Shown piece after piece: positions 6,240 through 9,434 of a stretch of DNA of 24,468 bases. Source of the DNA: a virus; the IMG/VR virus record IMGVR_UViG_3300044765_000056, positions 1 to 24,468 of that record; one strand, 5' to 3'. Numbering within the stretch: position 1 is the stretch's first letter; the number at the start of each line of letters is the position of its first letter. The translations under genes and the position numbers were made by a program. The notes below the pieces were generated by a model. It saw nothing but the letters and a program-made list of their open reading frames with translations. It was not told the origin of the DNA and did not search any database.

Positions 6240-6587
6240 TTACGCTCGCCCCGCAGGGAAGATGTGCTGCCACACGCGGCGCTCGATGCGCGCCTCACGC
6301 TCGGACTCGGCACGACGGCGCTCCATCGCCTCGACCTGCGAAATCGCGACGACCTCGGCTTCAGCCTCCATCACCTTGTCGCGGATCTGTTCGAACGTGA
6401 CCTTGCCAAGCACGAGGTCGTGCAGGTCGTCGTAGGCCGTGGCGAGGTAATCGGTCACCGAATCGCCAACCTCATGCGCCGTTTTCAAGTCGCCAGCTGC
6501 CAGCAGCGCCTTGCGGTACGCGAACTCCTTCGCGGTCAGGTCGCGGATTTGAAGCTCGCGGGCTTCGTCGTTTGAGAGACGATCCAT
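6240..6587 (-). CDS. Hypothetical helical phage protein, 115 aa
   Basis: A soluble, almost wholly helical protein: MDRLSNDEARELQIRDLTAKEFAYRKALLAAG, then VTDYLATAYDDLHDLVLGKVTFEQIRDKVMEAEAEVVAI, and a highly charged ERRRAESEREARIERR stretch that is probably coiled coil. No family is recognised. It is the second gene of the leftward operon, 11 nt after the first, and is followed by the tRNA-like gap. Function unknown. Confidence 0.7.
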   Translation of the reverse strand: MDRLSNDEARELQIRDLTAKEFAYRKALLAAGDLKTAHEVGDSVTDYLATAYDDLHDLVLGKVTFEQIRDKVMEAEAEVVAISQVEAMERRRAESEREARIERRVWQHIFPAGRA

Positions 6588-6598
6588 GTCGCACTCCG

Positions 6599-6760
6599 TC
6601 AGAAGTTCCAGGCCTTGGCGGCGGCAGCCTTCGCTGCTGCCTTCGCCTCAACCTTGCTGTCGTAAAGCGTCTCGGACACGATTCCTTCGGAGATCGACGG
6701 GCCGGTAGACAAGATCAGGCGGACTTTCTTGCCAGCTGCGCGGTAGATGTGTGCGTACAT
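6599..6760 (-). CDS. First gene of the leftward operon, 53 aa, unknown
   Basis: The ATG at 6760 has AGGAG 7 nt upstream on the minus strand, so it is chosen over an in-frame ATG at 6850, which lies upstream of the predicted transcription start. The protein starts MYAHIYRAAGKKVRLILSTG and ends with an alanine/lysine-rich helix KVEAKAAAKAAAAKAWNF. As the first gene behind PL it holds the position of lambda N, but it lacks an obvious arginine-rich N-terminal RNA-binding motif. An antitermination role is not supported. Function unknown. Confidence 0.6.
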   Translation of the reverse strand: MYAHIYRAAGKKVRLILSTGPSISEGIVSETLYDSKVEAKAAAKAAAAKAWNF

Positions 6761-6818
6761 GCTGCTGCTCCTATCGGTTGCCGCTTGGCTCTTGCCTGCG
6801 GTTGGTTGCGATGGAGAC

Positions 6819-6847
6819 ATTATCACGAATGTGTTTGACGTTGTCAA
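6819..6847 (-). promoter_or_regulatory. Leftward early promoter (PL)
   Basis: On the minus strand, TTGACA (6847-6842) is followed by exactly 17 nt and GATAAT (6824-6819), a perfect -35 and a five-of-six -10. It points into the leftward recombination operon. One operator copy covers the spacer and touches the -10; the other touches the -35, so repressor binding would block RNA polymerase. Confidence 0.85.
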
Positions 6848-6859
6848 CACGAACGTGAT
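6822..6859. promoter_or_regulatory. Left operator pair (OL1, OL2)
   Basis: Two 14-bp sites: ATCACGAATGTGTT at 6822-6835 and AACACGAACGTGAT at 6846-6859 (the reverse complement is ATCACGTTCGTGTT). Each is an imperfect palindrome with ACG/CGT half-sites. They lie 24 nt apart centre to centre and match three sites in front of cro. Binding by the repressor and Cro encoded nearby is inferred from the shared sequence and placement. I see no third copy here. Confidence 0.75.
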
Positions 6860-6931
6860 GATTGAAGTGAAAATTTTTATGCGAAAAAGTGTGCCGCAGC
6901 GCGGCCCCTCTTGAGATGCTGAGTCGGGGCG

Positions 6932-6956
6932 AAAAAAAGCCCGCTCTAAGCGGGCT
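6932..6956 (-). terminator. Intrinsic terminator after the 182-aa gene
   Basis: On the minus strand, AGCCCGC-TTAGA-GCGGGCT is followed by a T run (A run 6932-6938 on the plus strand). It ends transcription of the gene at 6976-7524 before PL and so insulates that gene from the early operon. Confidence 0.85.
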
Positions 6957-6975
6957 CTATGTAGACTAAGGTGAA

Positions 6976-7524
6976 TTACTTGTTACCTGCCGCAGCGTTA
7001 CGCTCGGCCTCGCAAGGCTTGCATTCTGACTCCCAGTCAAAGGAGCCGTTCTTTTCAACAATTTTCGGGAAGCCCCACTTCGAACGTGTTACCGGACAAT
7101 TGGGCCATTTTGCTAAGAACACATGATTGATTAGATTGTTGGCGGGGAGAAATTTGTCCCAGAACGACGCGCCACCCTGTTGTTCAATTAAGTCGATTGC
7201 AAGAGTGTCCACGCCACTCAGAGGGATATCCGAGTAGTTGCTAGGGCACGACTCAACCACCTCTTTCAGCGCCGGAGTCACCGCATTATCTGGGTTGCCG
7301 CTGAATATGAACCCCTTGTCAAAGAGCGCTTTCCTGGCGACATATTCGCACTTGCCCCAAGCTGCAGCCTCATCCGCTGACTTAGGCCCATCCTTACTAT
7401 GCTTTGCTGACCAGCAAGTGTCGTACCATTGTTTGCCAGTCTGATAAAAAATACCGTTATATGCAAGTGCCGCCAATACCGCGGCGCCAATTATCCATAG
7501 GCTAAATGATGGCCCGTCTTTCAA
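6976..7524 (-). CDS. Membrane-anchored protein of unknown function (accessory gene)
   Basis: A 182-aa protein with an N-terminal hydrophobic segment (about residues 8-27, FSLWIIGAAVLAALAYNGIF) and a cysteine-containing remainder (C37, C58, C93, C142, C168, C171), compatible with an exported or periplasmic domain with disulfides. The start is TTG at 7524 with AAGGAGG 8 nt upstream. Codon use and base composition are clearly more AT-rich than in neighbouring genes, and the gene has its own terminator, so it looks like a later insertion (a moron) between PL and the repressor gene. It may be expressed in the lysogen or under SOS control, since a LexA-type box lies about 100 nt upstream. No family is recognised. 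Confidence 0.75.
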   Translation of the reverse strand: MKDGPSFSLWIIGAAVLAALAYNGIFYQTGKQWYDTCWSAKHSKDGPKSADEAAAWGKCEYVARKALFDKGFIFSGNPDNAVTPALKEVVESCPSNYSDIPLSGVDTLAIDLIEQQGGASFWDKFLPANNLINHVFLAKWPNCPVTRSKWGFPKIVEKNGSFDWESECKPCEAERNAAAGNK

Positions 7525-7620
7525 GTCCTGCCCCTCCTTGTTTGAATAAGACGCCGCTGCGTTCGCTTCAATTGTTAAAATCCGGACTGCCTTACGAAAC
7601 CAATATTCCCTAGCGTAAAC

Positions 7621-7640
7621 TACTGTATGGGTGTACAGTA
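7621..7640. promoter_or_regulatory. LexA-type SOS box between divergent genes
   Basis: TACTGTATGGGTGTACAGTA is a CTGT-N8-ACAG palindrome that matches the classical LexA consensus at 16 of 20 positions, with all outer bases correct. The symmetry extends outward (TAAAC on the left, TTTTA on the right). It abuts a possible rightward -10, TAAACT at 7616-7621 (with TTACGA at 7592-7597, 18-nt spacer), and a possible leftward -10, TAAAAT at 7645-7640. The box sits in the 228-nt gap between the leftward 182-aa gene and the rightward small gene. LexA binding is inferred. Confidence 0.65.
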
Positions 7641-7752
7641 TTTTAGCGTTCTGAACTATGGGACTCGGAAAATTCTGCAGTGCTCTACTTCAGTTTCGCC
7701 TATCAAATTCATCAAATATAGGTAGGGATAAGCCTACAGACTGGAGGCGATG

Positions 7753-7956
7753 ATGCATCGGAAAGATAAGCTGAACATGATGTTTGAGGCCATCGATGAC
7801 GAAGGCAAGGACGTGGTGTTAGACATCCTTACAGGCGAGTATGAGCGTGTACGAGCGTCACGACGCGCGAGACTTCGCCTCGTCAGCTGCACGCATCCGG
7901 CGCCGAATGTTCCTCACCAGCCGCTCAATCCGACTTCGATCAGCCGGGCTCGATAA
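7753..7956 (+). CDS. Small protein convergent with the repressor gene
   Basis: A 67-aa ORF with GGAGG 5 nt before the ATG at 7753 (another ATG at 7750 is possible). The protein begins MHRKDKLNMMFEAIDDEGKDVVLDILTGEYERVRASRRARLRLV; the first half resembles the short C-terminal helical segments of XRE-type phage repressors (MF..I..E....VLDIL). The last third overlaps the 3' end of the repressor gene on the opposite strand by 99 nt. It lies downstream of the LexA box. An antirepressor or modulator role is a hypothesis from position only; it could also be a minor uncharacterised protein. Confidence 0.5.
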   Translation: MHRKDKLNMMFEAIDDEGKDVVLDILTGEYERVRASRRARLRLVSCTHPAPNVPHQPLNPTSISRAR

Positions 7957-8277
7957 CCGGTAAATTTCGATCATCTCAACGATGGTGCCAAGGATGTCCT
8001 CCGGCTGCGCTGGGGTCGCACTTTCGCTCCCGGAGGGCTGAACTTCCGTCTTACCGCCATCCTGCTCGTCCATAGGAGAGCCCTGTCCATTTGCCAGCCA
8101 GACCGGATCTACATCGAGAGCGGCCGCGATGTCCACGATTCTCCTGGCTGTCTGGCGAATGCCTGCCTCTAAATTCCCGATAGTGCTCTGCGATACGCCT
8201 CCTAGTTTGGCCAAGGCTTCCTGAGTAAGCCCCTTACGTTCGCGGGCCCATGTGAGCCGTTTCCCCAAAGTATCCAT
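7858..8277 (-). CDS. XRE family phage repressor (CI-like, no peptidase domain)
   Basis: A 139-aa protein with an HTH_3/XRE domain at about residues 5-62: RLTWARERKGLTQEALAKLGGVSQSTIGNLEAG, recognition helix around QSTIGNLE. After a polar linker, the C-terminal part (DILGTIVEMIEIYRLSSPADRSRIERLVRNIRRRM) is helical and likely for dimerisation. There is no S24/LexA-type serine-lysine peptidase domain, so RecA-driven self-cleavage is not expected. The ATG at 8277 is chosen because upstream in-frame sequence runs through the operator region and cro. No Shine-Dalgarno is seen before it; its mRNA may be leaderless. It faces cro across three operators, which makes it the lysogeny repressor. Confidence 0.85.
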   Translation of the reverse strand: MDTLGKRLTWARERKGLTQEALAKLGGVSQSTIGNLEAGIRQTARRIVDIAAALDVDPVWLANGQGSPMDEQDGGKTEVQPSGSESATPAQPEDILGTIVEMIEIYRLSSPADRSRIERLVRNIRRRMRAADEAKSRAS

Positions 8278-8338
8278 ATCACGAATGTAATACAGATCTT
8301 CATCACGTTGGTGTTGACGCCCTAAACACGAACGTGAT
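8278..8338. promoter_or_regulatory. Right operator triplet (OR)
   Basis: Three 14-bp sites lie between the divergent repressor and cro genes: ATCACGAATGTAAT (8278-8291), ATCACGTTGGTGTT (8302-8315) and AACACGAACGTGAT (8325-8338, inverted). Centre-to-centre distances are 24 and 23 nt, as in lambda OR. The site nearest cro is identical to one OL copy. The first site touches the repressor start codon, so it would control repressor synthesis, while the other two overlap the cro promoter. Confidence 0.8.
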
Positions 8339-8341
8339 ACT
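8314..8341 (+). promoter_or_regulatory. Rightward early promoter (PR)
   Basis: TTGACG at 8314-8319 and GATACT at 8336-8341 with a 16-nt spacer, overlapping two operator copies. The predicted transcription start is about 7 nt after the -10, within a base or two of the cro ATG at 8350, so the cro message would have almost no leader. Confidence 0.7.
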
Positions 8342-8349
8342 GTAGACGC

Positions 8350-8583
8350 ATGGATACCCAAAATATCACCTCCGATTTGATTAAGTCCGGCCTCACTCAG
8401 CAGCAGTTGGCCGATTTGGTTCCGTGTAGCCAATCGCTTATTGCGGCGTACTTGGCCGGCAAGCGCGGCGCGCGACCATCCAAGCAAATCGGCGACCGAC
8501 TTGAGCAACTTCATGCTGAGCGGTGCCGCCCCCTTACCCGAACCCCTCGACGACGTCGCATTAGCGACTCCCAGCCGCAGTAA
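8350..8583 (+). CDS. cro: Cro-like repressor
   Basis: A 77-aa basic DNA-binding protein with a helix-turn-helix: SDLIKSGLTQQQLADLVPCSQSLIAAYLAGKRGARPSKQIGDRLEQL (about residues 8-54), recognition helix around SQSLIAAYL. The arginine-rich tail (RTPRRRRIS) may add nonspecific DNA contacts. The family, size and position opposite the repressor make it the Cro counterpart, expected to bind the same 14-bp operators and turn off repressor synthesis during lytic growth. It is the first gene of the rightward operon. No Shine-Dalgarno precedes the ATG. A TTG at 8377 is a less likely alternative start. Confidence 0.82.
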   Translation: MDTQNITSDLIKSGLTQQQLADLVPCSQSLIAAYLAGKRGARPSKQIGDRLEQLHAERCRPLTRTPRRRRISDSQPQ

Positions 8584-8598
8584 CCCCTGCGGTTTTTC

Positions 8599-8640
8599 GT
8601 TGCCTAAAAAGTTGCAGTTAGGAAAAAGCTTATAGGCAAC
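8599..8640. repeat. Inverted repeat between cro and the next gene
   Basis: GTTGCCTA at 8599-8606 and TAGGCAAC at 8633-8640 form 8-bp inverted arms 26 nt apart, with a smaller CCTAA/TTAGG pair inside. No T run follows, so it is not a standard terminator. It could be a protein-binding site or an RNA processing or antitermination element of the right operon. Confidence 0.4.
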
Positions 8641-8700
8641 AGCAGCACCCGCCAGCCGCAAGGCTGACCCACGTAACCCGCAACACCAAGGAGAAACACC

Positions 8701-8955
8701 ATGTTTTACAACCCTGAAGCCCGTATCGACACGATTGAGGTCTGCGTGAACGAGGCCGAGAAGAACGCTGCGAAGGCGCTCTGCAAGGCTCTCGGAATCG
8801 GAGTCTCGACGTGGTACCGGAACCTCGGAAATGCCGAGTTGCAACGCCATGGTATGCCCCCGGGCAAGCCGAAAGAATCCGGAGGTTGCCGGGGTGTTGG
8901 GCGCCCGGCCAGTCGTGCGGGTGGTGCGAAGGGGGCAATGCGGAGACACCTTTAA
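8701..8955 (+). CDS. Small putative DNA-binding protein, 84 aa
   Basis: Preceded by AAGGAG 7 nt before the ATG. The first part reads RIDTIEVCVNEAEKNAAKALCKALGIGVSTWYRNLGNAEL: a beta-strand-like TIEVCVN, then two helices, the layout of ribbon-helix-helix regulators. This is judged by eye only. The rest is glycine- and arginine-rich and looks disordered. It occupies the place of lambda cII, directly behind cro, so a regulatory role is plausible. It has none of the strong similarity to CII that I would expect to recognise. Confidence 0.6.
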   Translation: MFYNPEARIDTIEVCVNEAEKNAAKALCKALGIGVSTWYRNLGNAELQRHGMPPGKPKESGGCRGVGRPASRAGGAKGAMRRHL

Positions 8956-8991
8956 GGGGTTTCGCCTGCGCCACGAGGTGGCAAAAAAATA

Positions 8992-9011
8992 GCCCGGAGG
9001 GAGAGCCGGGC
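8992..9011 (+). other. Hairpin upstream of the 65-aa gene
   Basis: GCCCGG (8992-8997) and CCGGGC (9006-9011) form a 6-bp GC stem without a following T run, just before the GAGGAAATAACA-ATG initiation site at 9028. It could protect the mRNA end or adjust translation; it is not a terminator by its sequence. Confidence 0.4.
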
Positions 9012-9027
9012 CATAGAGGAAATAACA

Positions 9028-9225
9028 ATGGACAAATTATCACATGAAAGTAAGGCTGCGACGAAGGTAATCGCGAAAGCGTGCACCTGGGCCGATCGCC
9101 GCAAATCGATGCAGTCTGCTTCTGAAGACCAAATCGCACGAGAGTCCGGCCGCTACCGCGTCAGCATCAACGAGTTGGCGGAAGCGGTCGAGCACTACCG
9201 CAAGGCCGAGAAAGCGGGGAAATGA
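9028..9225 (+). CDS. Small hypothetical early protein, 65 aa
   Basis: GAGG lies 8 nt before the ATG. The soluble charged protein (MDKLSHESKAATKVIAKACTWADRRKSMQSASEDQIARESGRYRVSINELAEAVEHYRKAEKAG) is helical, and the second half, RVSINELAEAVEHYRKAEK, could be a short helix pair. No family is recognised. Its stop overlaps the next start as ATGA. Confidence 0.65.
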   Translation: MDKLSHESKAATKVIAKACTWADRRKSMQSASEDQIARESGRYRVSINELAEAVEHYRKAEKAGK

Positions 9226-9434
9226 TGGATACCAGCATTTCCCCCGTCACACCTGAAATTATGCGCCAACGCGGCGCAGACGCCTTTGACAACGGTCACG
9301 GCATCGACGATCACAACATGAATCCGTGGTCGCCGGCTGTTGCCGACTGGCGTAAGGGCTGGCAGCAACGTCAGGCCGAGGTCGGCGCCCTTCGTGTTCT
9401 GGCCGCAGCCATGTCGATGGGAGCACCGACATGA
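9222..9434 (+). CDS. Rmf/CrpP-like small protein
   Basis: A 70-aa protein whose core, QRGADAFDNGHGIDDHNMNPWSPAVADWRKGWQQRQ (about residues 16-51), has the spacing of ribosome modulation factor and CrpP proteins: an RG..A...G helix, a turn with NP in place of CPY, then a W..GW helix. Rmf binds 30S ribosomes and promotes 100S dimers in stationary phase; the phage and plasmid members (Rmf/CrpP family) have less certain roles. The similarity is by pattern and needs a profile search to prove. Coupled on both sides by ATGA overlaps. Confidence 0.6.
   Translation: MMDTSISPVTPEIMRQRGADAFDNGHGIDDHNMNPWSPAVADWRKGWQQRQAEVGALRVLAAAMSMGAPT

Follow-up and report, generated by a model that had tools for sequence, protein, structure and literature searches.

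A putative LexA-controlled antirepressor gene overlapping a short, non-cleavable repressor gene in Burkholderiales phages

The window analysed here is the whole of a 24,468-base IMG/VR virus record (IMGVR_UViG_3300044765_000056), probably a fragment of a virus genome. Its immunity region carries a small rightward gene placed between a perfect LexA (SOS) box and a short repressor gene, whose 3' end it overlaps. The explanation that best accounts for the features described below, and which is considered probable without being secure, is that this gene encodes a LexA-controlled putative antirepressor acting on the C-terminal hairpin of the repressor. The triad formed by a LexA box, a small gene and a convergent short repressor recurs across diverse Burkholderiales phages.

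The immunity region and its LexA box

Besides a P22-like portal protein, a terminase and recombination proteins of the ERF and YqaJ types, the window encodes an immunity region whose DNA (6300-9300) gave no match when compared with phages. This region includes a rightward Cro-like HTH gene (8350-8583, 77 aa; phrog_6831, E 8e-16), the leftward repressor gene (7858-8277), the rightward small gene (7750-7956) and a leftward gene (6976-7524), which has a TTG start with a good Shine-Dalgarno sequence and whose 182-aa product has several cysteines and a hydrophobic stretch near its N-terminus. By eye, a hairpin followed by a T-run can be seen after the stop of this last gene, near 6930-6960; it does not appear in the scan output. 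Copies of an ATCACG..CGTG motif are found at 6822-6860 and at 8278-8338 (ATCACGAATGT, ATCACGTTGGTGT, AACACGAACGTGAT). The former lie over a promoter-like site (6847-6819, minus strand) and the latter adjoin another (8314-8341). Since motif copies and promoter-like sites are as expected for operators, both clusters are taken as putative left and right operators. Neither these clusters nor the recurrence of the arrangement in relatives figured in the earlier note on this DNA.

The repressor is an XRE protein of 139 aa. The Pfam scan gives HTH_3 (E 8e-15) and no Peptidase_S24, and the AlphaFold2 model comprises an HTH (residues 4-63), a disordered linker (71-89) and a C-terminal two-helix hairpin (92-108 and 111-138). 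The long Foldseek matches of this model include SinR (1b0n_A) and chains of the arbitrium antirepressor entry 9iaq.

The earlier note had pointed to a near-consensus LexA box lying between the leftward 182-aa gene and a small rightward gene that converges on a repressor of only 139 aa without S24 domain, and the coordinates and the Pfam scan bear out each of these elements. The box (TACTGTATGGGTGTACAGTA, 7621-7640) is in fact exact, is also conserved in relatives and is the sole perfect CTGTN8ACAG of the whole window. Since TACTGTN8ACAGTA would be expected by chance only 4.3e-4 times in the window (6e-5 times in 6976-8277), the box is not a chance occurrence. In each of seven related host genomes, Massilia included, the lexA locus also has boxes of the CTGTN8ACAG type close to the gene (7 of 7), which suggests that the LexA of the probable host should read the box of the window.

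Toward the small gene, a putative promoter (7592-7621, plus strand) would consist of a -10 element TAAACT (7616-7621) fused to the box and of a weak -35 element TTACGA (7592-7597), separated by an 18-nt spacer; it is not among the matches of a consensus promoter scan. The TAAAC directly 5' of the box, which gives the -10 element, is found in the window, in L004 and in 8 of the 11 Burkholderia/Pandoraea-type loci compared. The distance from the box to the small gene is 109 nt in the window, with nothing in between, and 19-38 nt in L005, L006, L031 and L251. L007 and L009, where it reaches about 560 nt, are exceptions; in these two loci, the box is also seen 5 nt before a 270-aa repressor-like ORF located beyond the short repressor (near locus 5230). 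The predicted site, together with the motif present in hosts, points to a putative control of the small gene by LexA.

The small gene and its protein family

The small gene has two possible starts, an ATG at 7750 (68 aa) and a second one at 7753 (67 aa), with GGAGG at 7743-7747, and it overlaps convergently the last 99 nt of the repressor gene (7858-7956). Its product was aligned over the whole length with two close relatives from viral contigs and with a third one from L006, a locus whose counterpart is a prophage (L064) of Massilia sp. PDC64. In codons 1-35, the part that precedes the overlap with the repressor gene, the window and L002 differ by 13 synonymous versus 4 non-synonymous changes (dS 1.3, dN 0.05), and the window and L003 by 15 versus 1 (dS 2.2, dN 0.01). 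The two shifted frames of the same codons do not display such an excess of dS over dN. These comparisons indicate that the small gene is real and that its protein is under strong purifying selection. The C-terminal third of the protein, which overlaps the repressor gene, displays no conservation.

The AlphaFold2 model of the small protein is a two-helix hairpin (helices 4-14 and 17-38) with a variable, disordered end; pLDDT averages 77.7 and is at least 90 in blocks 1-30. The protein also has an RLRLV motif. Neither this protein nor two relatives match any of 50,697 phage records, and with E values up to 10 allowed, Pfam returned no family for it, whether SinI or an HTH family. In the same way, Foldseek found no relative of the model and VIA no usable match. 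Matches of the small-protein profile in the PDB (pentatricopeptide designs, coiled coils) were set aside as noise.

Small genes are present at the same spot in ten divergent groups of short repressors, and their products share the motif LxxxFRAM ... P-x-LRLV. Fourteen small gene/repressor pairs were tabulated, the small ORFs being picked by eye from their position, start codon and ribosome site. The two genes overlap convergently in 13 of these pairs (L059 has no overlap), and the shortest overlap is 9 nt. With leave-group-out profiles, 13 of the 14 small proteins score above 95% of 500 shuffles, while L020 fails (70 of 500).

As these first ORFs had been chosen by position, members were also searched by profile alone. 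Among 399 Burkholderiales genomes, 16 have a match at E 0.01, only two of which are below 1e-4, namely the Massilia locus of the model itself and L236. In L236, a LexA box lies 8 nt before the small ORF, which overlaps the end of a 142-aa repressor carrying a different HTH. Among 392 Oxalobacteraceae genomes, 34 have a match at E 0.001. Twenty loci from this latter search were examined (23 further matches lie outside the count), and the small gene converges on a short repressor and overlaps it in at least 8 of them. This number is a minimum because the purpose-built HTH profile, the only one applied to L261, L264, L265 and L267, misses some HTH types. A strong LexA box is found in three of these eight convergent loci (five are without) and in none of the 12 others. 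Five convergent loci are new by profile alone (L251/L236, L253, L259, L263 and L269), two of them with LexA boxes (L251, L253).

Several of the 12 other loci, all devoid of the box, are presumed early operons or tandem arrays. Tandems of two or three hairpin-family genes were seen in L257 (1304-1710), L262 (1196-2050), L264 and L266 (1289-2064), in presumed prophage early operons of Oxalobacteraceae and away from recognised repressors. Because many members are boxless and distant from repressors, action on a neighbouring repressor may not be the role of the family, or not its only one. In three loci without LexA box (L255, L259, L269), a similar motif, TGACAATTNGTTAGT with few changes at most, was observed within 80 nt 5' of the small gene; it is perhaps another input or a strong promoter.

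Searches of Pfam, PHROGs and NCBIfam gave no name to the family. One of 13 members matches the NCBIfam DicA model at E 0.064, and the DicA tail, when scored with the small-protein profile, beats 499 of 500 shuffles but has E 1.7 among 5999 ORFs; both are hints only. A different protein of about 105-125 aa with an RCKPGDLA motif, which matches no known family, was noticed in many of the Burkholderia and Pandoraea loci (L026-L058, L071, L074-L078) in the same slot, i.e., with a LexA box and convergent on a short repressor. It is possibly a non-homologous antirepressor.

Short repressors and their C-terminal tails

A search with the repressor led to 60 related viral loci and 18 genome loci, where the box is again found shortly past the repressor gene. 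Close repressors were merged into clusters, and a box was counted if it had a perfect core, at most three outer mismatches and a position within 900 nt of the repressor stop. Repressors of at least 190 aa with the motif of the S24 serine were classed as long; in the sample checked with Pfam, all 16 long repressors had S24 and none of the 20 short ones did. L063, L080 and L081 (weak matches), L233 (too short) and L091-L197 (mostly the same contigs again) were left out. Such a box is located downstream of the repressor in 20 of 42 short-repressor clusters versus 0 of 23 long-repressor clusters (Fisher p 3.4e-5), and it is absent from the control kilobase upstream of the repressor in all 65 clusters. 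Many of the 22 short-repressor clusters without such a box stem from genome searches and are more distant, and these may not represent phage repressors.

The small protein is moreover coupled to one part of the repressor. Over 15 loci, one per close group (the near-duplicates L004, L005, L007 and L020 being left out), similarity between small proteins tracks similarity between repressor tails (Spearman 0.37, permutation p 0.0004), whereas it shows no positive covariation with similarity between HTH domains (rho -0.32). The correlation persists after removal of all overlapping codons (rho 0.39, p 0.0002), addition of L059 (rho 0.40, p 0.0005), removal of the four closest partners (rho 0.42, p 0.0015) or omission of any single locus (rho 0.31-0.46), as well as when shuffle-normalised scores are used and overlap length and HTH similarity are corrected for (rho 0.36, p 0.0007). 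For example, L209 and L259 share the same tail and small protein but differ in their HTH, and so do L017 and L253. The natural reading, although unproved, is that the small protein binds the repressor tail. Because the tail and the small gene are adjacent and overlapping, the covariation could also stem from linkage alone. It points in any case to a cassette, the two parts of which may simply be swapped jointly, on a single DNA segment.

A helical stretch like the tail of XRE repressors had been attributed to the small protein in the earlier note. Hairpins are indeed predicted in both partners, but likeness in sequence to the protein's own tail was not found. Direct alignment of each small protein with the tail of its own repressor gives a mean z of 0.16 over 14 pairs, and 0 of 11 own pairs exceed z 3, so that a sequence mimic of the own tail was rejected. 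Across groups, a weak resemblance is seen, with 11 of 110 pairs exceeding z 3. With leave-group-out profiles, the small-protein profile places 10 of 14 tails above 95% of their shuffles, and the tail profile does so for 8 of 14 small proteins. As the small proteins are unlike their own tails, plain sequence mimicry is unsupported and the claim is limited to a common helical hairpin and to covariation; the 'tail mimic' detail is weakly supported. Independently of these pairs, a free-standing 55-aa ORF of L217 (461-628, minus strand) matches the repressor-tail profile at E 8e-8 and resembles a tail without HTH.

A binding of the small protein to the tail would not by itself make it an antirepressor. 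It could act as a co-repressor, a stabiliser or a timing device, comparable to MOR and Lxc, which PMC11323111 presents as small partners able to support lysogeny. Alternatively, the family could consist of general early phage proteins directed at another target, some of which were recruited beside repressors, and the boxless relatives in presumed early operons and tandem arrays are consistent with this. Such readings are rather unlikely, since a box that stands beside short repressors and never beside long ones of the S24 type fits an inducer and not a helper of lysogeny.

A broader reading, tentative but somewhat more plausible than these, also builds on the antirepressor. The small protein would belong to a large family, as yet undescribed, whose members are free-standing partners of repressor tails, and the tail and its hairpin partner would form a cassette spliced onto unrelated DNA-binding domains. 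The promoter of the partner would be swapped between inputs, LexA in some phages and TGACAATTNGTTAGT in others, and the tandem hairpin arrays of early operons could be directed at other prophages of the cell, whose repressors they would disarm.

The proposed switch and its relation to known systems

The antirepressor reading, built on sequence comparisons and models, can be laid out as follows. In the lysogen, the 139-aa repressor would silence two early promoters from the operators at 6822-6860 and 8278-8338, while host LexA bound to 7621-7640 would keep the small gene off. Because the repressor lacks an S24 peptidase, RecA cannot trigger its cleavage. DNA damage would instead remove LexA and allow the 68-aa hairpin protein to be made. 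This protein would bind the repressor through the C-terminal helical hairpin of the latter, its probable dimerisation part, and the repressor dimers would fall apart or leave the DNA, which would lead to the expression of lytic genes. The switch suggested in the earlier note is thus strengthened by the motif at all seven host lexA loci, the absence of S24, the association of the box with short repressors (20/42 versus 0/23), the selection on the small protein, the predicted hairpins and the coupling to the tail. Two of its elements are weakened, as the antisense idea is not needed and the leftward gene is probably a passenger.

It could be argued that the box controls this leftward 182-aa gene, which would encode an SOS-linked accessory membrane protein, the small gene being expressed otherwise. 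The box lies 96 nt from the TTG start of the 182-aa gene, and one box could control both sides. Yet the gene found beyond the box varies from locus to locus (the 182-aa protein in the window, lipoproteins in L005 and L006, Arc-like proteins, recognised by eye, in L017, L020 and L044) whereas the small gene is kept, hence its probable status of passenger. Furthermore, the TAAAC element is oriented toward the small gene, which begins only 19-38 nt after the box in the four loci cited above, and searches of viral contigs and phage records gave no relatives of the 182-aa protein. Control of the leftward gene instead of the small one is therefore improbable. The same holds for an SOS-induced transcript that would act in place of the protein, lowering repressor synthesis by interference or RNA pairing: the small-gene mRNA is indeed antisense to the repressor 3' end, as the earlier note remarked, over 99 nt in the window and with overlaps in 13 of the 14 tabulated pairs, but this action is not needed and was rejected as the main reading because selection acts on the protein, most strongly in codons 1-35, outside the overlap, whereas the overlap can be just 9 nt, homologues exist away from repressors and repressor already made would persist.

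The mode of action proposed for the antirepressor resembles that of SinI in Bacillus subtilis, a small helical protein that acts on the helical C-terminal part of the HTH regulator SinR. SinI/SinR is a biofilm switch and is not known to be LexA-controlled; the PDB entry 1b0n is, by its title, the complex of both proteins. The match of SinR to the repressor model in Foldseek agrees with this likeness, but the window protein has no Pfam match to SinI and the VIA alignment of the repressor model with SinR covers the HTH part only.

The regulatory logic is known from other phages. PMC3121763 mentions, as LexA-controlled antirepressors of non-cleavable repressors, Tum of coliphage 186, AntC of N15 and the Gifsy proteins. 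As in the Tum, GfoA/GftA and AntC systems, the window repressor has no cleavable S24 domain according to Pfam; the S24 peptidase of lambda-type, RecA-cleaved repressors was not found in it. The comparison with Tum, already drawn in the earlier note, holds for the logic only: Tum has 146 aa and a DinI-like half, whereas the window protein has 68 aa and a predicted hairpin, and its gene is placed inside the immunity region. In the Gifsy pairs (antirepressors GfoA/GftA/GfhA, repressors GfoR/GftR/GfhR), as set out in PMC3121763, a short uncleaved repressor (136 aa in Gifsy-1/-2) is inactivated by a small LexA-controlled protein. However, the Gifsy antirepressor genes follow a dinI homologue and are not part of the immunity region, whereas the gene of the window belongs to this region and overlaps that of the repressor. 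Rem of E. coli (Qin), found through its relation to GfoA/FsoA according to PMC10448788, does not match the small-protein family profile, and no relation to it was found.

Other small-protein systems share some of these features. In the TF-smORF lysis modules (Silpe et al. 2023), as described in PMC10432266, homologue-less small proteins inactivate the phage's own repressor, but these modules are driven by phage transcription factors, independently of SOS. The arbitrium-linked system of PDB 9iaq includes a small antirepressor, as far as its entry title goes, and its HTH chains align with the repressor model over 107-113 columns in Foldseek, but its signal is a different one. MOR of TP901-1, in the account of PMC11323111 cited above, is a small protein with a helix-turn-helix motif, whereas the window protein has no HTH family match and a two-helix model.

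Searches of the CC-licensed PMC literature brought up no paper recognisable as a description of the small-protein family or of the convergent LexA-box arrangement. The window would combine a known logic (Tum/GftA) with a protein family that is unrelated, as far as tested, and with a different location of the gene, within the immunity region and in overlap with that of the repressor. Beyond the earlier note, the analysis adds the family itself, its link to repressor tails and the boxless members that have another common motif instead.

In many temperate phages, the repressor cannot be induced by RecA to cleave itself, and how DNA damage is sensed is known for few of them. The signature made up of a LexA box and a small convergent gene overlapping a short repressor gene is a searchable candidate answer for a group of Burkholderiales phages. 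Ordinary annotation misses this family because its genes are tiny and overlap others. Finally, the covariation with the repressor tail offers a direct way to test the binding site of such antirepressors.
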